NCBI RefSeq assembly: GCF_000612665.1
Contig: NZ_HG942052.1
Span: forward strand, 1 to 64,000
DNA length: 64,000 bases
Reading direction: 5' to 3'
From: Neobacillus dielmonensis
Lineage (GTDB): Bacteria; Bacillota; Bacilli; Bacillales; Cytobacillaceae
The notes beneath the pieces were generated by a model. It did no database searches and had not been told where the DNA came from. It saw only the letters and a program-made list of their open reading frames with translations. The position numbers were made by a program, and so were the translations under genes. Positions 14,327-22,949 of the stretch are shown here, piece by piece (position 1 is the first letter of the stretch; every line of letters begins with the position of its first letter).

Positions 14327-17300
14327 TCAGCTAACAACCTCTGCTTCCAGTTGTTGAACAATATCAGTCAGCAGTTCAATTGATAAGCCGCCATCTAAGG
14401 CTGCTAACAAGCTATAATAAAAATCACTCACCTGTTCGTTTAATTCCTGCAGCAACAGGTTAAATTCATTGGTTAAATATTCTTCATAATGTTCCATTAA
14501 CCGCGCCGACTCTTGTGATAAATATTGATCTGCCAATGGGTTTAATTGGTTGTTAAGCTCCGTGCTCATCAATGTCTTTTCATCTTTTTCAAAAAATGCC
14601 TTCGGATTCTTAAAATAAGCCAATGCTTTTGTAAAAAGCTGACGTTCGACATCCTTAAAGGCGATTGGAAAGTCTATTTCTTTTCCTGGACTTTTTTCAT
14701 AAGCTGAAAATGAAAGGTCCCGGTTAATGGTATTGACAGCTTGATGTAGGGAAGCATGATATTCGAGCAGAACCTTTTCAACAAATCGATCTAACCTGAC
14801 AGTCGTGGCCCGCATTTCCTGAGCAAAATCATAGCCTATACTTTCGAGAAATTCCTCAAGTGCAGCATGCAATGCTTTCTTCATAGAGCGCCCGTCATTT
14901 TTTAGAACTGATGGATTAAATGCTTCTTTAAAGAAATCATTAAACCGGAAGAATACCCTCTGTTTGATATAAAAAACAAGTTCCTCTGCCTCTTGTATCA
15001 TTCGCATCCGCACCGGGTCGATTTTCTGATTTTCAAACAATCCTTGTATCATCGACAATTGATTATTGTATTCCTGGCGTTTCTCTGCTCTTACAGCGCT
15101 ATCTTGCTGTGAACTTTGAATTAACTGGTTCACCATTCCACTTACCCGATGCAATTCGGTTTCGGCCGCTGTAATCGCCATTTCGGTTAACTCGTTAGTG
15201 ATAAACCGATAAAATCCGTCTTCAAAGAAGTTGATTCCCGAATTAACGTTTGAACCCGGATTCTTTTTTTCATTTATGGCTTGTAAGCTTGAAACCGAAT
15301 AGAGATGAGGGTTCCGAATGCCGTATTGCATTAACTGGCTTACTACATAATCAACAACTGCTTCTTTTTCCTCAACACTTTCAGCTAAATCAATTGCGTT
15401 AATGATAAAAAACATTTTATCTAATTGAAAGGATTCTTTGACCCTGCCAAGCTGGATTAAAAACTCGCGGTCGGCACGAGAAAATGCATGATTGTAATAA
15501 GTAACGAATAAAATGGCATCTGAGTTTTTAATATAGTCAAAGGCCACTCCAGTATGCCGTGCATTGATGGAGTCAGCTCCTGGTGTGTCGACAAGAGTGA
15601 TGCCCTTTCTTGTTAACTCACAATCGTAGTATAACTCAATCCACTCCACGTAACAGGATTTCTCTTCTTTCACGACAAACTCGTTAAATTCGCTAATTTC
15701 CGTTTCTAAAATAGTTCCAAGCCGGTTAATAAGAGAATCATACCCTAATTGGAATGCCCGTAGAAAAGCATAATGAGTTTTCTCAGCGGCACTTTCCTGT
15801 TCTTTCTTTTTCAAAATTTGATTTATTTTTGCTAAGGCTTGGTTGAAATCCTCTGCTTCTAAATCAAATACCTTTAAGGAGCGATTGAGATCTTGGAACA
15901 TGGCAGCTGGATCCTTAAATTTAATTCGGACAGTTCCATGACTGTACTCAGAAGTAACAGGCTTAATTTTATTTATGGCTGCAGTGGTAGGATTAGGTGA
16001 AACTGGAAGAACTTTATCACCCATTAAAGCATTGGCAAACGATGATTTTCCGGCACTGAAAGCACCAAATAATGCTACAGTAAACCCTTTATTCTCCAAT
16101 CTTTCTGCTTTTTCCATTAATTCATGAGCCAACTTTTGAAAACCAGGTAGATCTTTGATTAACCTGGAAGCTTTTTGAAGCCTTGCACTTGTCCTTTTCA
16201 CATCCCTAACGTCCAACGTTCCTTCGGCTAGTTGTCTTTGTTTGGTACTCACCTCTTGATGCTGCACAGTTAATTGTCGCAATTCTTTTGTTGCCCCATT
16301 GGTTCTAACAATCTCAAATTGTTCTGGTTCCTGTTCAAAAAGCCAGTTTGTGCCGGATTCTACATGAACTTCTTTGGAAAAAAGCTTTTCTATATCCTTT
16401 GCTTTTTCGGCTAATATGTTTTTAAAATCACTAATCTTAGAAAATGCAGTAATATATTTCTGCATTTCTTGTGTTTCGCTCTGATACTGCTCCGATAGGT
16501 AACGGTTACGTTGTTTTAATGAGGAAAAATAACAGGTCCGGAATTCTGCTGCTTGAATTTTGGCTGCTTTTTTAATTTCATTTGCAACATCATCTGTATA
16601 TTGAAGCAGATATTGGCCTGATAACAGTGCCCCTTGCTTTACAGCCCTTTGCAGCAAATCAATAGAAACATGAATGGAGTAAGACTGAGCTAAATGCTGC
16701 ACTTCCCCATCATGAATACCGGTATCTTTTAAGATACGAAGCAGATATTCCCGAATATGCCACTCAAGCTGTGATTTGGTCTTCTCCAGAATATCCTGAT
16801 AAAACGCATTAAGCCGGTTTTCTCTTTCCTCTATGGTCTTCTGTTTTGAGAATAGGAAACCCACTTTGAACTCAGGCTGGCATGATTCTAGGTAAACTTC
16901 TGCTAACTTTCTCGTTTGAAAAGGCATTAAATAGGCATTGTTAAGCAGCTTTTCCAGTTCTAGGTCAAATTCCTTTTCCTGAATTTGTGTACCCTCCAGC
17001 ACTGATTTTAGCTCAGCAGACCGTTCCTGATAGTTTTTTATAATTGTTGTTTTTTCCTGTTCCGATAGTTCATTTATCATGTTCAAATAAGGAAGAAGAT
17101 CTTCTTCCCCGTGCTTTTTGGTTTGTTCAAGATGGTCCCGGGTAATTTTTTTCAGAGAATGAAACACAGATGGCAAAAGTAATTGCTGTGATTGATTCAA
17201 CTGTTTTAAAATAAATGCCTGTAGTTCTGCAAACTCATTGTAAGGATGATTTTTTTCCCTTAGTGAGGTATAAAAAATTCTTGGCGGTCTTACCCCCCAC

Positions 17301-17986
17301 GAAGCAAAGGATTCCACGACACTTTTTTGAAAATCTGAAAAACTTAATTCTTCCTCATTATGTTTATCTATCTGATTAATGACCAAATAGACGTCTTTTC
17401 CAGCTTCCGTTAATTCTTTAGTAAAGAAAAAATTCAGCTCCGCTTGCACATGATTATAATCCATTACATAAAAGATTAAATCAGCGAGATGAAGCGCTGA
17501 TTCTGTGGCAATTCTGTGGGCATCATCAGCAGAATCAATGCCAGGTGTATCCATTATTACTGCATCTTGTGGCAAGACGGAACTGCTATGGCTAATTTCA
17601 ATTTCCTGAATTGTGTCCCCATCTTTGCAATAATTTTTTACAAGTTCATAATCATAGGGCGCTAAATATAATCTAGGTTTTTCGTTTTTAAAAAACACTT
17701 TGGCATACTCATCACCAAATTTTACTTTGACAAGGTTAGCACTCGTTGGAATTGGACTGGACGGGAGAATATTTTCACCGACTACTCGATTAATCATTGT
17801 TGATTTTCCCGCAGAAAAGTGGCCGCAAAAGGCAATTGTGAATTCCTGGTTGGCAAATTTTTTAGCAAGCTGTTTTACTTTTTCAGCATGCTCCATATCT
17901 TTTTCCAAAATGAAGTAGTTATATGCCGAGACGAGTTTGTGTTTAAGTGTCTCAACGGTCTCTTTTGTTTTTACTGTTTTCACCAT
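14327..17986 (-). CDS. dynA: Bacterial dynamin-like protein DynA
   Basis: Large membrane-fusing GTPase formed by two dynamin modules in one chain, known from B. subtilis DynA (YpbR), which protects membranes from phage and pore damage. The 1219 residues contain a first P-loop GHFSAGKS at 55-62 with MDTPGIDS, and a second P-loop GAFSAGKSS near 640 with LVDTPGADS, each followed by long helical stalk regions. Length is close to B. subtilis DynA (1193). Start ATG at 17986 with AAGGGGT upstream. No membrane helix; it should bind the inner membrane peripherally. Confidence 0.95.
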   Translation of the reverse strand: MVKTVKTKETVETLKHKLVSAYNYFILEKDMEHAEKVKQLAKKFANQEFTIAFCGHFSAGKSTMINRVVGENILPSSPIPTSANLVKVKFGDEYAKVFFKNEKPRLYLAPYDYELVKNYCKDGDTIQEIEISHSSSVLPQDAVIMDTPGIDSADDAHRIATESALHLADLIFYVMDYNHVQAELNFFFTKELTEAGKDVYLVINQIDKHNEEELSFSDFQKSVVESFASWGVRPPRIFYTSLREKNHPYNEFAELQAFILKQLNQSQQLLLPSVFHSLKKITRDHLEQTKKHGEEDLLPYLNMINELSEQEKTTIIKNYQERSAELKSVLEGTQIQEKEFDLELEKLLNNAYLMPFQTRKLAEVYLESCQPEFKVGFLFSKQKTIEERENRLNAFYQDILEKTKSQLEWHIREYLLRILKDTGIHDGEVQHLAQSYSIHVSIDLLQRAVKQGALLSGQYLLQYTDDVANEIKKAAKIQAAEFRTCYFSSLKQRNRYLSEQYQSETQEMQKYITAFSKISDFKNILAEKAKDIEKLFSKEVHVESGTNWLFEQEPEQFEIVRTNGATKELRQLTVQHQEVSTKQRQLAEGTLDVRDVKRTSARLQKASRLIKDLPGFQKLAHELMEKAERLENKGFTVALFGAFSAGKSSFANALMGDKVLPVSPNPTTAAINKIKPVTSEYSHGTVRIKFKDPAAMFQDLNRSLKVFDLEAEDFNQALAKINQILKKKEQESAAEKTHYAFLRAFQLGYDSLINRLGTILETEISEFNEFVVKEEKSCYVEWIELYYDCELTRKGITLVDTPGADSINARHTGVAFDYIKNSDAILFVTYYNHAFSRADREFLIQLGRVKESFQLDKMFFIINAIDLAESVEEKEAVVDYVVSQLMQYGIRNPHLYSVSSLQAINEKKNPGSNVNSGINFFEDGFYRFITNELTEMAITAAETELHRVSGMVNQLIQSSQQDSAVRAEKRQEYNNQLSMIQGLFENQKIDPVRMRMIQEAEELVFYIKQRVFFRFNDFFKEAFNPSVLKNDGRSMKKALHAALEEFLESIGYDFAQEMRATTVRLDRFVEKVLLEYHASLHQAVNTINRDLSFSAYEKSPGKEIDFPIAFKDVERQLFTKALAYFKNPKAFFEKDEKTLMSTELNNQLNPLADQYLSQESARLMEHYEEYLTNEFNLLLQELNEQVSDFYYSLLAALDGGLSIELLTDIVQQLEAEVVS

Positions 17987-18084
17987 TTGTAATACCCCTT
18001 AGCAGCTTAATAATATTTCTATTTTACACAATAATTCTGACTTTTCCTATATTGACACCCCTTTTACTGGGATGTTTTTTTATA

Positions 18085-18117
18085 ACAAATAAGGCCAAGG
18101 ATTTCTCCTTGACCTTC
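18085..18117 (-). terminator. Terminator of the 26-codon micro-gene
   Basis: Minus strand AAGGTCAAGGA / TCCTTGGCCTT hairpin with a 4-base loop, then a U- and A-rich tail. It lies 14 bases beyond the stop of the small reading frame at 18131-18211. Confidence 0.6.
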
Positions 18118-18130
18118 GAAGACTTTTTCA

Positions 18131-18211
18131 TTAATGGGTTATATTTTTTAAAACGTGCCTCATGACGAATGCGTAAATAATAAGTGTTCCTCCAACAAAA
18201 GCATAAGTCAT
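18131..18211 (-). CDS. Fur-box-associated micro-protein, one membrane helix
   Basis: Not recognised. 26 codons encode a single hydrophobic segment (AFVGGTLIIYAFV) followed by a basic tail ending MRHVLKNITH, typical of a one-pass membrane micro-protein. The ribosome-binding region AAGGAAGGTG lies 6 bases upstream of the ATG. It has its own sigma-A-like promoter (TTGAAA, 17 bases, TATCAT; 18296-18268), two Fur-box-like sites and a downstream hairpin, so transcript and coding frame form a complete unit of about 175 bases. The RNA may act as well as the peptide. It lies between bpsB and dynA. Confidence 0.55.
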   Translation of the reverse strand: MTYAFVGGTLIIYAFVMRHVLKNITH

Positions 18212-18241
18212 ATGTAACACCTTCCTTACCATGCTCAGTAA

Positions 18242-18296
18242 TGAGAATGATTTTCATCATTTCCTAAATGATAACATAACTGATAATCGTTTTCAA
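18242..18296 (-). promoter_or_regulatory. Sigma-A promoter with two Fur-box-like sites
   Basis: Promoter: TTGAAA (18296-18291), 17-base spacer, TATCAT (18273-18268) on minus. Box 1 at 18242-18256 reads TGAGAAT-G-ATTTTCA, 12 of 14 specified positions of the 7-1-7 Fur box TGATAAT-N-ATTATCA. Box 2 at 18281-18295 reads TGATAAT-C-GTTTTCA, also 12 of 14. Box 2 covers the -35 end and spacer, and box 1 lies just after the likely start point, as for repression. Confidence 0.6.
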
Positions 18297-18319
18297 CAAA
18301 CTATTGGCAGCTGTCAAAA

Positions 18320-18889
18320 TTATTTAACAATTCTCGGCACAAACCGGCGGAAACCCTTGAAATCCTCTTTATACCTTGTTAACTTGCCTAGGGCCATTTC
18401 TTCCTCTGTTATACGGACAGAAAGCATGATCACATTTAAAATCGTAAATAGACATGCAGTAGAGTAGCATTGGAAGAGGATGGGCACTACGAGAAATTCC
18501 ATAGAAACGACCAAATAATTGGGATGTTTTATAAACCGATAGGGCCCCTTCTTCACCACTTTTATATTGGGGATGATAATAATTTTTGTGTTCCAAAGCC
18601 TACCTAATGCAGTTATTGCCCAAATTCTAAGGCCTTCTATCATGAGAAACAACAGTACAAGTCCTTGCCATGCGGGGGATAAGCTCCGATTTAGCAACCA
18701 TTTTTCTAATATCAGAATCAGAAAAAACAAACCATGCATGATTACCATATATCGATAATGGTTGCTGCCAAATTCAATTCCTCCCCGCTGCTTCATCCAT
18801 CTTTCATTATTCTTAGCCAAGACTAATTCAGAAAATCGCTGAACAATCAAAAAAAGGAACAAAGAAAAGAAGGGTACCAAATCATTCAT
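18320..18889 (-). CDS. bpsB: Isoprenylcysteine carboxyl methyltransferase family protein (YpbQ/BpsB)
   Basis: 189-residue membrane methyltransferase of the ICMT family. In B. subtilis BpsB methylates the alkylpyrones made by BpsA. Several helices are followed by the cofactor-binding signature GPYRFIKHPNYLVV and a C-terminal EEEMALGKLTRYKEDFKGFRRFVP-type end. The start codon overlaps the bpsA stop by four bases (ATGA) and follows a GGTGGGTGG site, so the two genes are translationally coupled. Confidence 0.9.
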   Translation of the reverse strand: MNDLVPFFSLFLFLIVQRFSELVLAKNNERWMKQRGGIEFGSNHYRYMVIMHGLFFLILILEKWLLNRSLSPAWQGLVLLFLMIEGLRIWAITALGRLWNTKIIIIPNIKVVKKGPYRFIKHPNYLVVSMEFLVVPILFQCYSTACLFTILNVIMLSVRITEEEMALGKLTRYKEDFKGFRRFVPRIVK

Positions 18890-19977
18890 TCCACCCACCT
18901 CAATAAAAGTAATTCGGAGCTGAATCCTGGTCCTAACGCCGTACAAAGGCCATATGAGCCTCTTGGGATATCCCTTTCGAGATAAAGCCTTAGGACGTAT
19001 AAAATGGTGGCAGAAGACATGTTTCCATGATGCTTCAATACCTGAAAAGAAAGGTCAGTCATGGATGAAGTAAATCCCATTGCTTTTTTATAGGCATCTA
19101 AAACTTTTTTCCCACCTGGATGCGCAATGAAATGGTCTATCTCCTTTAAAGTCCTTCGATTTCTTGCCAAAAAATGATCTACAATTGGTTTTAACCATTC
19201 CTCAATAATATGTGGGATGTCTCGTGAAAAAACCACAAACAATCCGTCATCCTTAACATCCCAGCCCATCACATCAAGTGACTCTTGCATCAGGGTTGAT
19301 TCCGTTGCAATAATAGATGGGTATGCACGTTTTTGACCAAATTCATTAAGATTACAGTCATCTCCACAAACTAAGGCACACGCTATCCCATCAGCAAACA
19401 AGGATGTTCCAATTAAATTACTTTTGGACACGTCCCCAGGCTGAAAGGTTAAGCTACAGAGTTCGACCGAAAGCACAATCACTTTAGCTTCTGGAAAGGC
19501 TAAGCAATATTCAAATGCGCGCGATAACCCACTGGCGCCTCCTGCACAACCAAGACCCCAGATTGGGATTCTCTTTGTGTGCGAATGAAACGGCAATTGA
19601 TTCATAATCCTTGCATCAATACTTGGCGTGGATATCCCTGTTGAAGATATAAATAAAATGGCGTCTATTTCCTCATATGCAATGGGCGTTTTAAGGAAAT
19701 CACTATTATTTAAGCATTTTTCAATTGCTTCTTTTCCAAATTGAACAGCTTCTTCAATATATGTCTTATTTTTTTCCTCAAATGTATGCCGCTCACGATA
19801 CCATGACAGGTCCTTTACAAAATGACGGGTTTCAATTTGACCATTCGGAAATGCCCTTAATAATCTATCAATATCCGTAAATGTATCAGAGAATAAGTCC
19901 CGGGCAAACTTTGTAACTTGTTCTTGCTTAATTTCATATGGGGGAACCACCTCAGCTGCAGAAACAATAATCGGCAT
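18886..19977 (-). CDS. bpsA: Type III polyketide synthase BpsA (chalcone synthase-like)
   Basis: 363-residue type III polyketide synthase that condenses long-chain acyl-CoA with malonyl-CoA to alkylpyrones. The catalytic cysteine is C144 in GLGCAGGASG. The histidine lies in FIAHPGGKK and the asparagine in KHHGNMSSAT, completing the Cys-His-Asn triad. Length and sequence follow B. subtilis BcsA/BpsA. It starts with ATG after AAGGAG. It is preceded by a promoter and a terminator-like hairpin (20053-20117), so read-through may matter for its expression. Confidence 0.94.
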   Translation of the reverse strand: MPIIVSAAEVVPPYEIKQEQVTKFARDLFSDTFTDIDRLLRAFPNGQIETRHFVKDLSWYRERHTFEEKNKTYIEEAVQFGKEAIEKCLNNSDFLKTPIAYEEIDAILFISSTGISTPSIDARIMNQLPFHSHTKRIPIWGLGCAGGASGLSRAFEYCLAFPEAKVIVLSVELCSLTFQPGDVSKSNLIGTSLFADGIACALVCGDDCNLNEFGQKRAYPSIIATESTLMQESLDVMGWDVKDDGLFVVFSRDIPHIIEEWLKPIVDHFLARNRRTLKEIDHFIAHPGGKKVLDAYKKAMGFTSSMTDLSFQVLKHHGNMSSATILYVLRLYLERDIPRGSYGLCTALGPGFSSELLLLRWVE

Positions 19978-20052
19978 CTTCCATTCTCCTTAAACTAATC
20001 TAGAGGTAGTTTTTCATTCTTAGATCCTTAATATGTATCTAATCTCGCAAAA

Positions 20053-20083
20053 ACAAAAAAAAGCTCCCTCAGCATGAGGAAGC
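20053..20083 (-). terminator. Terminator-like hairpin ahead of bpsA
   Basis: GCTTCCTCA-TGC-TGAGGGAGC stem followed by eight T on the minus strand. A GTTATAATAA -10-like box lies about 35 bases upstream. It could be the terminator of the small zinc-ribbon frame at 20199-20327, or an attenuator/short RNA unit in the bpsA leader. Confidence 0.65.
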
Positions 20084-20198
20084 AAACGTTTTGAAGGTTG
20101 TTGTTGTGCATTTTTATTATAACGTGATTTTATCCATCTTTCACTATCTAAACTTTTCCAATCTCCTCCAAAACCCTAGAAAAGTTGTTTTCTTTTAC

Positions 20199-20327
20199 TT
20201 ACTTTTCAGATTGTTTTTGGACTTCTATTTTTATTTTATTGCCTGCTAGTATGCCACAGACCTGGCAATTTTGCAGTTTGTTATATAAAAGCCGGCAGTG
20301 CTCACAATAATATTTAACCAATTTCAT
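20199..20327 (-). CDS. Possible small zinc-ribbon protein, 42 residues
   Basis: A 42-codon frame with two CxxC knuckles, C8-x2-C11 (CEHC) and C21-x2-C24 (CQVC), and a basic, charged C-terminal tail. This is the layout of a minimal zinc ribbon. The cysteine spacing argues that it is real, but the start is weakly supported: only GTGGTG lies directly before the ATG and no good Shine-Dalgarno spacing is seen. It precedes bpsA on the same strand by about 220 bases, with a hairpin between. Function unknown. Confidence 0.45.
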   Translation of the reverse strand: MKLVKYYCEHCRLLYNKLQNCQVCGILAGNKIKIEVQKQSEK

Positions 20328-20476
20328 CACCACAGCATAAAATTGAATTCTTCTTTTATCATATTTTTGTTGTTAACAATTTGTGACTCCATCCAAGCTC
20401 CTTTGCAAATCTTCCATACCAGTCCATAGAAGACAAAAGATAATTCACATTTCCGCCACAATTCCCCGCCCTCTGA

Positions 20477-20492
20477 TGTGATTTAAATCACT
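20477..20492. promoter_or_regulatory. Fnr-type palindrome upstream of the ba3 oxidase
   Basis: TGTGA-TTTAAA-TCACT; the inner GTGATTTAAATCAC is a perfect 14-base palindrome. Taking TAACAT (20514-20519) as the -10 box, the site centres at -41.5, the standard class II activation position for Fnr proteins. Confidence 0.65.
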
Positions 20493-20643
20493 GTTATATC
20501 AGTTTTTTACCTTTAACATGTTAGATATATAAGGAATGAACAATTTGTGAACTCTCCGATTTCATATTTTACTTTCACAATTGTTTTGTATTATGAAAGA
20601 GAACTTATCATTCATTGTAAAAAGTTGAAAGGAGTGTAAGGGG

Positions 20644-20793
20644 ATGGCGAAAGCGGAACTTAAAGCAAACCAGAAAACCGAAGTAGAAGACAGCTCCTCC
20701 TTAAAGGGGACACTTGCATCCGTTTTCTTTGTGGGATTATTTATTATTGTTACTTGGGTAAGTGTCTACTACTTATTCGTCGACCGCTTCTAA
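20644..20793 (+). CDS. ba3-type cytochrome oxidase small subunit (IIa-like)
   Basis: 49-residue protein with a hydrophilic N-terminus and one membrane helix (about residues 25-44, VFFVGLFIIVTWVSVYYLF). Its place directly ahead of subunits II and I, and its size, match the subunit IIa peptides of B-type (ba3) oxidases. ATG start with AAAGGAG upstream. The next gene follows after 21 bases, in one operon. Identification rests on context and topology. Confidence 0.8.
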   Translation: MAKAELKANQKTEVEDSSSLKGTLASVFFVGLFIIVTWVSVYYLFVDRF

Positions 20794-20814
20794 AGACAAA
20801 AGGGGGGAAACAAG

Positions 20815-21294
20815 ATGCATATTCATAAGTTTGAAAAAATTTGGCTCATTTTTGGCATAAGCTGCCTCGTCATTTTCTTATCCGTTGTCGGGGTAAGCGC
20901 CTTCTATCTTGGCAATAAGCCGCCAAGCTGCTTAACTACAATTAACCCTGAAAAGGTAGATCAAACAAAGCCTTTCAATAAACCAGGACTGCACAAAGTG
21001 GAAGGGAAGGAATGGGACTATGAATTGGTTTATGTAGCCCAAGCATTCTCTTACAATCCTGCCCAAGTAGAGGTTCCGCTGGGTGCCAAAGTTAAAGTAA
21101 TTGCCACAACCAAAGACGTGATTCATGGTTTCGAAGTGGCGGGAACAAATATCAACATGATGCTTGAACCCGGTTATGTCAGCGAATATACAACAACATT
21201 TGATAAAGCAGGAGAATATTTAATTGTGTGTAACGAATACTGCGGCTCCGGCCACCATTTAATGTTCTCAAAGATTGAGGTGGTAGAAAAATGA
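20815..21294 (+). CDS. cbaB: Cytochrome c oxidase subunit II, ba3-type
   Basis: 159-residue subunit II anchored by one N-terminal helix, with a periplasm-side cupredoxin domain that holds the binuclear CuA centre. Ligands are visible near the C-terminus: C-x3-C-x3-H-x2-M in CNEYCGSGHHLM, plus the upstream histidine in DVIHGFEV. The single N-terminal helix and short length are typical of ba3/B-family oxidases rather than caa3. It overlaps the next gene by four bases. Confidence 0.92.
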   Translation: MHIHKFEKIWLIFGISCLVIFLSVVGVSAFYLGNKPPSCLTTINPEKVDQTKPFNKPGLHKVEGKEWDYELVYVAQAFSYNPAQVEVPLGAKVKVIATTKDVIHGFEVAGTNINMMLEPGYVSEYTTTFDKAGEYLIVCNEYCGSGHHLMFSKIEVVEK

Positions 21295-22949
21295 TGAACA
21301 CAGCAGCAGATAAAATTAAAGTAGACCCGCGCGATGCAAAGCTTTCAATGGCTCACTTTTTCGTAGCATTTGCCGCCTTGGCGATCGGTGGACTAATGGG
21401 ATTATTACAAACGCTAGTTCGTTCCGGTAAATTTGAACTTCCTGCCGGCATCGGTTATTACCAACTATTAACCGTTCACGGCGTCATGATGGGACTTATT
21501 TTAACTACCTTTTTTATCATGGGATTTCAATATGCTGCTGTCAGCAGGACAGCAGGAACACATTCTAACGCTGCCCGAAGAACAGGCTGGGTTGGTTTTT
21601 GGTTAATGACTCTTGGCACAGCAATGGCAGCAACAATGGTATTGCTCAATAAGGCATCTGTCCTATACACCTTTTATGCTCCATTACAAGCGCATTGGAT
21701 TTTCTATTTAGGATTGACTTTTGTTGTCGTTGGCAGCTGGGTGGATGGCGCTTCACAAATTATGACTTACGTAAAATGGCGCAAAAATAACCCTGGAAAA
21801 CCAAGTCCACTTTTAAGTTTCATGGCGGTGATTAACACTGTTTTATGGATTGTTGCTACATTAGGTGTTGCATCGACGGTTTTGTTCCAATTACTTCCTT
21901 GGTCTCTTGGCTGGGTGAAAACTGTAGATGTTTTGGTAAGCCGGACTTTATTCTGGTATTTTGGTCACCCATTAGTTTACTTCTGGTTGCTGCCTGCATA
22001 TATGTGCTGGTATGCCATAATTCCAAAAATTATTGGCGGAAAGATTTTCTCAGATTCATTAGCACGTTTATCGTTTATCATGTTCCTATTGTTTTCGATT
22101 CCAGTAGGGTTCCACCATCAGCTAACGGAACCAGGTATAGATCCTGCTTGGAAATTCATACAGGTTATTTTAACGTTTATGGTTGTCATACCATCCTTAA
22201 TGACTGCCTTCTCGTTATTTGCGACGTTTGAAAGATATGGCCGTTCTAAAGGAGCAAAAGGATTGTTCGGCTGGTTTAAGGTTCTTCCTTGGAATGATGC
22301 ACGGTTTACAGTACCTTTCATAGGAATGGCTTCGTTTATCCCTGCCGGTGCAGGCGGGATTGTAAATGCTTCAAACCAAATGGACCAGGTGGTTCATAAT
22401 ACCATCTGGGTAACGGGGCACTTTCATTTAACAGCAGCTACTTCCGTTGTATTAACATTCTTCGGAATATCTTACTGGCTTGTGCCCCATTTAACAGGCA
22501 GAAAATTAACAAAGTCGATGAATAAACTTGCCATTATCCAAGGTTGGGTTTGGTTTATTGGAATGGTATTTATGTCAGGTGCGATGCATATCCAAGGGCT
22601 GTTAGGCGGTCCAAGGCGCTCAGCCTTCTCCACTTATGGAGACTCTGCTCAAGCTGCACAATGGATTCCTTATCAAATTGCACAAGCTGTTGGCGGTACG
22701 ATTCTATTCCTTGGCATCATTTTAGTGCTGATCATCTTTATTAATCTAACTTTCTTTGCTCCAAAAGGTGACGAGGAATTCCCAGTTGGTGAAGCGGAGA
22801 AATCAGAGGCAGCTGCACCAATGGTATTCGAAAATTGGAAACTATGGCTAGGGATCACTGCTGTTCTCATCTTATTTGCTTACACTATACCGTTCATTGA
22901 TATTATTCAAAATGCACCTCCAGGATCTAAAGGATTCAAAACATGGTAA
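21291..22949 (+). CDS. cbaA: Cytochrome c oxidase subunit I, ba3-type
   Basis: 552-residue, about 13-helix haem-copper oxidase subunit I carrying the oxygen-reducing haem/CuB centre and proton channels. Histidine motifs are visible: FGHPLVYFWLLPAY (CuB site), FHHQLTEPG, and VTGHFHLTAATS for the haem ligands. The tyrosine expected to crosslink with the CuB histidine is in that first motif. Sequence style and operon point to the B (ba3) family, which has high oxygen affinity. It can start at either of two adjacent ATG codons (21291 or 21294). A strong terminator follows. Confidence 0.94.
   Translation: MMNTAADKIKVDPRDAKLSMAHFFVAFAALAIGGLMGLLQTLVRSGKFELPAGIGYYQLLTVHGVMMGLILTTFFIMGFQYAAVSRTAGTHSNAARRTGWVGFWLMTLGTAMAATMVLLNKASVLYTFYAPLQAHWIFYLGLTFVVVGSWVDGASQIMTYVKWRKNNPGKPSPLLSFMAVINTVLWIVATLGVASTVLFQLLPWSLGWVKTVDVLVSRTLFWYFGHPLVYFWLLPAYMCWYAIIPKIIGGKIFSDSLARLSFIMFLLFSIPVGFHHQLTEPGIDPAWKFIQVILTFMVVIPSLMTAFSLFATFERYGRSKGAKGLFGWFKVLPWNDARFTVPFIGMASFIPAGAGGIVNASNQMDQVVHNTIWVTGHFHLTAATSVVLTFFGISYWLVPHLTGRKLTKSMNKLAIIQGWVWFIGMVFMSGAMHIQGLLGGPRRSAFSTYGDSAQAAQWIPYQIAQAVGGTILFLGIILVLIIFINLTFFAPKGDEEFPVGEAEKSEAAAPMVFENWKLWLGITAVLILFAYTIPFIDIIQNAPPGSKGFKTW

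Follow-up and report, generated by a model that had tools for sequence, protein, structure and literature searches.

A probable diverged homologue of fbpC between bpsB/ypbQ and dynA of Neobacillus dielmonensis, predicted to encode a Fur-controlled one-helix membrane peptide

Does the space between bpsB/ypbQ and dynA of Neobacillus dielmonensis hold a gene of its own and, if so, what would its product do? In the window, by which we mean the whole stretch of 64,000 nucleotides that was analysed, the bpsB/ypbQ stop (18320) and the dynA start (17986) flank a complete small unit that reads in the direction of both genes, from bpsB/ypbQ towards dynA, on the minus strand. Pfam domains of the three neighbours (ICMT, chalcone/stilbene synthase and dynamin) fit ypbQ/bpsB, bpsA and dynA. 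A sequence-only reading had listed a promoter, two Fur-like boxes, a ribosome-binding site (RBS), a small frame and a terminator here, and on rereading the sequence all of these are present in that order and at the positions it gave. The sigma-A-type promoter identified by consensus scan (18268-18296) has its -35 element TTGAAA at 18296-18291, a 17-nt spacer and its -10 element TATCAT at 18273-18268. It matches the consensus at 10 of 12 positions and is the best of four minus-strand sites in 17000-19200, a region where both strands together hold 15 promoter-like sites against 6.5 expected; by eye, its layout is kept in relatives. Fur-like box 1 (TGAAAACGATTATCA, 18281-18295) overlaps the -35 element, and box 2 (TGAAAATCATTCTCA, 18242-18256) lies directly 3' of the inferred start point, each minus-strand box matching 12/14 positions of the 7-1-7 Fur box consensus. 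On the same strand follow a strong RBS (AAGGAAGGTG, 18218-18227), recognised from sequence and of low entropy in 48 close loci, the frame (MTYAFVGGTLIIYAFVMRHVLKNITH, 18131-18211) with its 26 codons at 18211-18134 and stop at 18133-18131, and an intrinsic terminator hairpin of 11 pairs (18091-18116). An ATG at 18232 is a second possible start of the same frame and would give 33 residues, but the RBS position and the length kept by relatives speak for the 26-residue version. A 78-residue overlapping frame (18024-18260) was dropped because selection is seen in the 26-residue frame only.

Could such an arrangement be fortuitous? A single Fur-like box means little, as the 15-mer at up to two mismatches occurs at 68 places in the whole genome and the reversed control pattern at 51. 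Two boxes within 40 bp, by arithmetic from the genome-wide counts, are expected about 0.02-0.04 times per genome. Elsewhere in the same genome (L210, C62:153630-153650) a perfect 15-mer Fur consensus overlaps a one-mismatch site shifted by 6 bp.

The 26-residue frame is found in 61/61 genomes of the genus, with a best E of at most 2.7e-7 in each, and a family search at E <=10, whose weakest hits include chance matches, returned it in 118/151 genomes and 23/25 genera. Either bpsA, ypbQ or dynA adjoins it in 84 of 88 loci, including matches with E near 1, these 88 comprising the 48 best matches and 40 chosen by hand from the family table. The set of 116 homologous loci used below joins 48 close loci (44 of the 61 genus genomes and four from two sister genera of the family) with 39 family, 21 order and eight class loci. 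The family loci are 39 of the 40 chosen, L076 having been dropped as a chance match with no neighbour and a best box of 11/14. Matches from the class-level search, which gave 206/398 genomes at E <=1 that are mostly partial or chance hits, were used down to about E 2e-3. Outside the set stand L091-L093, L112, L123, L124, L127, L131 and L133 (repeats or second views of loci, or omitted), L113-L115 and L144 (judged chance), L116-L119, L132, L134, L136-L143, L147 and L148, and L149-L194 (named loci and later search results). In genome G066 the frame occurs twice (L050, L051), at the usual place and on a short contig that matches neither bps nor dynA; the second copy may be foreign, since the listed contamination of this genome is 9%.

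Under a criterion of at least 11/14 within 130 nt upstream, with random windows from the same loci as controls, at least one Fur-like box precedes the frame in 116/116 homologous loci (77/3942 control windows) and two boxes in 98/116 (0/3942). By set the two-box counts are 48/48 close, 30/39 family, 20/21 order and 0/8 class, those for order and class not being blind, since profile score and neighbours guided the choice of these 29 loci when their boxes were already known. The 39-bp spacing of the window's boxes recurs in 34/48 close loci. The eight homologues from another order (L100-L102, L105 and L107-L110) carry one box each, and a pair of boxes may accordingly be characteristic of the window's own order. 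Close loci have a terminator after the frame in 48/48 cases, as against 7/235 control windows; by set the counts are 48/48 close, 29/39 family, 15/21 order and 3/8 class loci, as against 16/572. The earlier view that parts aligned in this way are unlikely to arise by chance is thus borne out, the frame being present in every genome of the genus and two boxes with a terminator in every close locus; the outcome it named as refuting, a frame lost from relatives while the boxes drift, is not what the relatives show (the frame in 61/61 genomes, a box in 116/116 loci).

The 26-codon frame is under protein-level selection. Its pN/pS is 0.156 over the 45 distinct coding sequences found in the close set, compared with 1.2 and 2.6 for the other two frames, dN/dS is 0.089 over 363 close pairs, and entropy at codon positions 1, 2 and 3 is 0.31, 0.12 and 0.96, the third varying most. 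Such strong selection bears on the proposal that this transcript acts as a regulatory RNA under Fur control, or has a dual function in which its coding region also base-pairs, and mostly disfavours a purely regulatory RNA. The low pN/pS is not the whole of the matter, as codons 14-22 (18146-18172) are nearly fixed at synonymous sites, with GCA in 44/48, GTC in 42/48 and CAC in 45/48 close loci. Compared with 7-25 same-residue conserved columns of DynA in the 36 close loci with enough dynA, codons 14, 16, 19 and 21 vary less than every reference column (0/17, 0/10, 0/7 and 0/25 columns as low). In a predicted hairpin this block folds back on the RBS and start codon, and in a test of pairing probability 41/48 close loci pair above the mean of their recoded versions, seven of them at rank <0.05. 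The low synonymous variation is not confined to the pairing block, however, since codons 4, 7, 8, 20 and 24 also fall below every DynA column, if less extremely. Moreover, only 10/39 and 8/21 of the wider loci exceed the recoded mean, the extra pairing being absent there; a duplex-energy test reached rank <0.05 in 0/48 close and in 3/39, 0/21 and 0/8 wider loci; and the four Rfam matches are all far below gathering scores. The close set is thus under some constraint at the nucleotide level, and the low synonymous variation is left unexplained by a protein role, but an RNA function of either kind is improbable. Of the sequence-only suggestion of a Fur-controlled small RNA, the RNA itself is mostly disfavoured by the selection on the protein, and the near-fixed codons 14-22 leave it some room.

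What protein, then, is being kept? By itself the window protein has no NCBIfam or Pfam match. A link to FbpC surfaced only with a wider alignment of 33 family members, ten of which match NCBIfam NF033217, 'Fur-regulated basic protein FbpC', with a best E of 3.2e-4. A profile of the family aligns end to end with one of FbpC from the Bacillus subtilis group (hhalign probability 96.9%, E 1.7e-10), and the homologues follow the FbpC plan, with about 26-31 residues, a hydrophobic N-terminal half and a basic tail. Chance would account for the remaining hits among the 33 members, namely Pfam DUF2788 (three members, best E 0.0089), TatC (one member, best E 0.14) and three other NCBIfam names (one member each). 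Of the 249 genomes of the order, five, which belong to a single genus, score over the NF033217 cut-off, as does the named control B. subtilis, strain 168 serving as a control match and not as a compared locus. In each of the five, the locus matches BpsA, YpbQ and DynA and carries two Fur-like boxes. A pattern scan of named genomes returned 24 Bacillus records, 12 of which were checked as loci, B. spizizenii, B. tequilensis, B. mojavensis and B. velezensis among them; all 12 have two boxes of at least 11, DynA is present in 12/12 and YpbQ in 11/12. The B. spizizenii, B. tequilensis and B. velezensis peptides score 76, 76.9 and 74 bits against the NF033217 cut-off of 60, which the window protein does not reach; the cut-off serves annotation, was set on the B. 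subtilis type and does not mark a biological feature. As it falls below the curated cut-off, the window gene would be a diverged FbpC homologue outside NCBI's equivalog.

The likeness extends to the locus. The fbpC genes of the B. subtilis group, like the window gene, sit at the ypbQ/bpsB-dynA junction behind a two-box promoter and encode a peptide of similar length with a helix and basic tail. The differences are those of a distant relative: the window protein is 27-35% identical to four aligned FbpC rows of that group, its family has K/R18-H/Y19 where theirs has G18-F/Y19, and its boxes are spaced by 39 bp as against 33-36 bp in the 12 checked loci. From profile, plan and position taken together, we conclude that the unit at the bpsB/ypbQ-dynA junction is in all probability a diverged fbpC homologue in orthologous position. 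The sequence-only reading, which knew of no described gene of this type here, is to that extent overturned. The original FbpC papers are said to be those of Gaballa (2008) and Smaldone (2012), and PMC6212828 mentions Fur binding at B. subtilis fbpC.

FbpA (Pfam PF13076) and FbpB of B. subtilis are likewise small, basic and Fur-controlled, according to PMC7430163 and PMC8464778, but with 54 and 48 residues (PMC8464778) they are longer than the 26-residue window frame. PF13076 gave no Pfam match for the window frame or any of the 33 family members. The window's own genome has an FbpA match of its own (E 1.1e-8), and FbpA is found in 145/249 genomes of the order. In PMC7430163, PMC8464778, PMC12871923, PMC9410917 and PMC6385055, FbpC is a protein of 29 residues and FbpA, FbpB and FbpC are proposed or assumed to be RNA chaperones of FsrA. 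Accordingly FbpC might be a soluble basic RNA chaperone that aids the Fur-controlled small RNA FsrA in pairing with its targets, a role consistent with the net charge of +2 or +3 from residue 17 to the end in 95/116 homologues and with FsrA being over its cut-off in all five genomes that have FbpC over its own. However, RNA binding is unconfirmed for every Fbp according to PMC8464778, and the N-terminal half of the peptide is uncharged in nearly all homologues, as detailed below. The two genes also part company in distribution: FbpC is present in 98/249 genomes of the order (at E <=1e-3, six genomes with best E of 0.027-0.042 having been dropped from the count) and FsrA (Rfam RF02273), under strict filters, in 8/249, with six shared. 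Laxer scoring of 30 relatives put none over the FsrA cut-off, 23 of them giving weak matches at E <=1, and the best match in the window's own genome, at E 0.584, is also below it; FsrA may have diverged past recognition. As small RNAs diverge fast and the filters were strict, this scarcity counts against an FsrA-bound role without excluding it. Overall, we consider the chaperone role distinctly improbable for this peptide.

The composition of the peptide points instead to the membrane. No D, E, K, R or H occurs at positions 2-16 in 115/116 homologues, the mean hydropathy of residues 3-17 is 2.11, and residues 17 to the end are net positive in 112/116. For a 30-residue relative (L058), AlphaFold2 with an alignment of 24 rows returned one helix at residues 2-24 (mean pLDDT 86.2, pTM 0.40), which is weak evidence, as a short hydrophobic peptide gives a helix almost regardless and the model is that of a relative. 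Conservation gathers on one face of the predicted helix (F5, T9, Y13, V16 and V20), with a moment of 6.45 against a shuffle mean of 2.68 (p 0.0037) over 105 related peptides, which are not independent of one another. About 16 uncharged residues precede K/R18, a short run, so that attachment to the membrane surface instead of insertion is possible. The sequence therefore suggests that FbpC is a membrane peptide and not the RNA helper usually assumed; the ten articles PMC6212828, PMC7430163, PMC4448311, PMC8464778, PMC12871923, PMC9410917, PMC6385055, PMC12943173, PMC8311930 and PMC9938188, in the parts available, give no membrane location for it. Two further elements of the sequence-only reading, one membrane helix with a basic tail and a microprotein of iron limitation, find support here, the former in the probable helix and the uncharged positions 2-16, the latter in the two Fur-like boxes and the selection on the protein.

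As a whole, then, we favour the view, with a probability of roughly 0.8, that the gene is a diverged fbpC homologue encoding a Fur-repressed one-helix membrane microprotein that docks on a membrane partner. We infer the regulation, topology and partner of the peptide as follows. With ample iron, Fe-Fur would keep the promoter off, box 1 lying over the -35 element and box 2 past the start point. Iron shortage would release a short monocistronic mRNA ending at the hairpin ahead of dynA, and its product would enter the cytoplasmic membrane as a single helix, the N-terminus most likely outside and the basic C-terminus inside. The conserved face (F5, T9, Y13, V16, V20) would then dock on a membrane protein and change its activity or stability so as to spare iron or take it up; our guess at the first partner candidates would be iron-rich respiratory complexes or iron permeases. 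A more specific proposal, that a widespread FbpC family of single-helix microproteins acts on a membrane protein independently of FsrA and that here an RBS-masking hairpin also fixes the synonymous codons 14-22, is tentative and on balance rather unlikely. MgtS, KdpF, AcrZ and CydX are single-helix regulatory membrane microproteins, and the window peptide may resemble them in setting one short helix on a larger membrane protein; the likeness is one of plan, and (predicted) regulation by Fur distinguishes the window gene.

Could the peptide instead be incidental to the expression of dynA, as a Fur-controlled leader or attenuator in which the frame is secondary? The gene starts 144 nt past the stop of the frame and in the same direction, and a review (PMC12943173) counts ypbQ and 'ybpR', by which it probably means ypbR (dynA), among the Fur-regulated genes of B. 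subtilis, which would fit a Fur site between them. We nevertheless consider this very improbable, given the terminator 3' of the frame throughout the close set, the absence of a DynA match from the examined DNA in 10/48 close loci, eight of these ten with the full 1.5 kb downstream, and the persistence of fbpC in L200, L202 and L203, where no frame of dynA size occurs within 5 kb. L200-L203 lack bpsAB and/or dynA, and fbpC is there close to a CheX/CheC-like gene, so called by Pfam match in L200 and L202 and by resemblance in L201 and L203. In L204 and L205 a CheX/CheC-like gene (Pfam) lies beyond bpsA, and in L205 an oxidase comes after it. The window holds no CheX-like counterpart frame of at least 60 residues at 19978-20643, and the gene seems absent from it; at 20644-22949 follow the cytochrome oxidase genes CoxIIa (49 residues), COX2 and COX1 (Pfam), of inferred ba3 type. 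We considered a link with the ba3 oxidase or the CheX neighbours of the rearranged loci and rejected it, the association looking like inherited gene order. The window's DynA (14327-17986) scores 852.5 bits against an NCBIfam cut-off of 1600, and the dynamin model also falls short.

Type I toxin peptides resemble the frame in size, single helix and basic tail, which raises the reading of a toxin-like membrane peptide under antisense RNA control, for which the promoter-like plus-strand sites at 18007-18053 might serve. Such sites exceed expectation in this region anyway, however, and a fixed position, presence throughout the genus, purifying selection and Fur-like boxes are all unlike mobile toxin units, leaving a toxin scarcely probable at all.

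The preferred reading, of a diverged FbpC acting at the membrane, concerns a gene type that is known but barely understood, and what is new here is a distant member outside the B. subtilis group. The curated model names five genomes and the wider profile reaches 98/249, which probably leaves the majority of the order's fbpC genes without a name. For a protein usually listed as a putative RNA chaperone the alignment offers a testable correction: in many genera beyond the B. subtilis group, selection appears to keep an uncharged helix with one conserved face, and a direct test is therefore possible.
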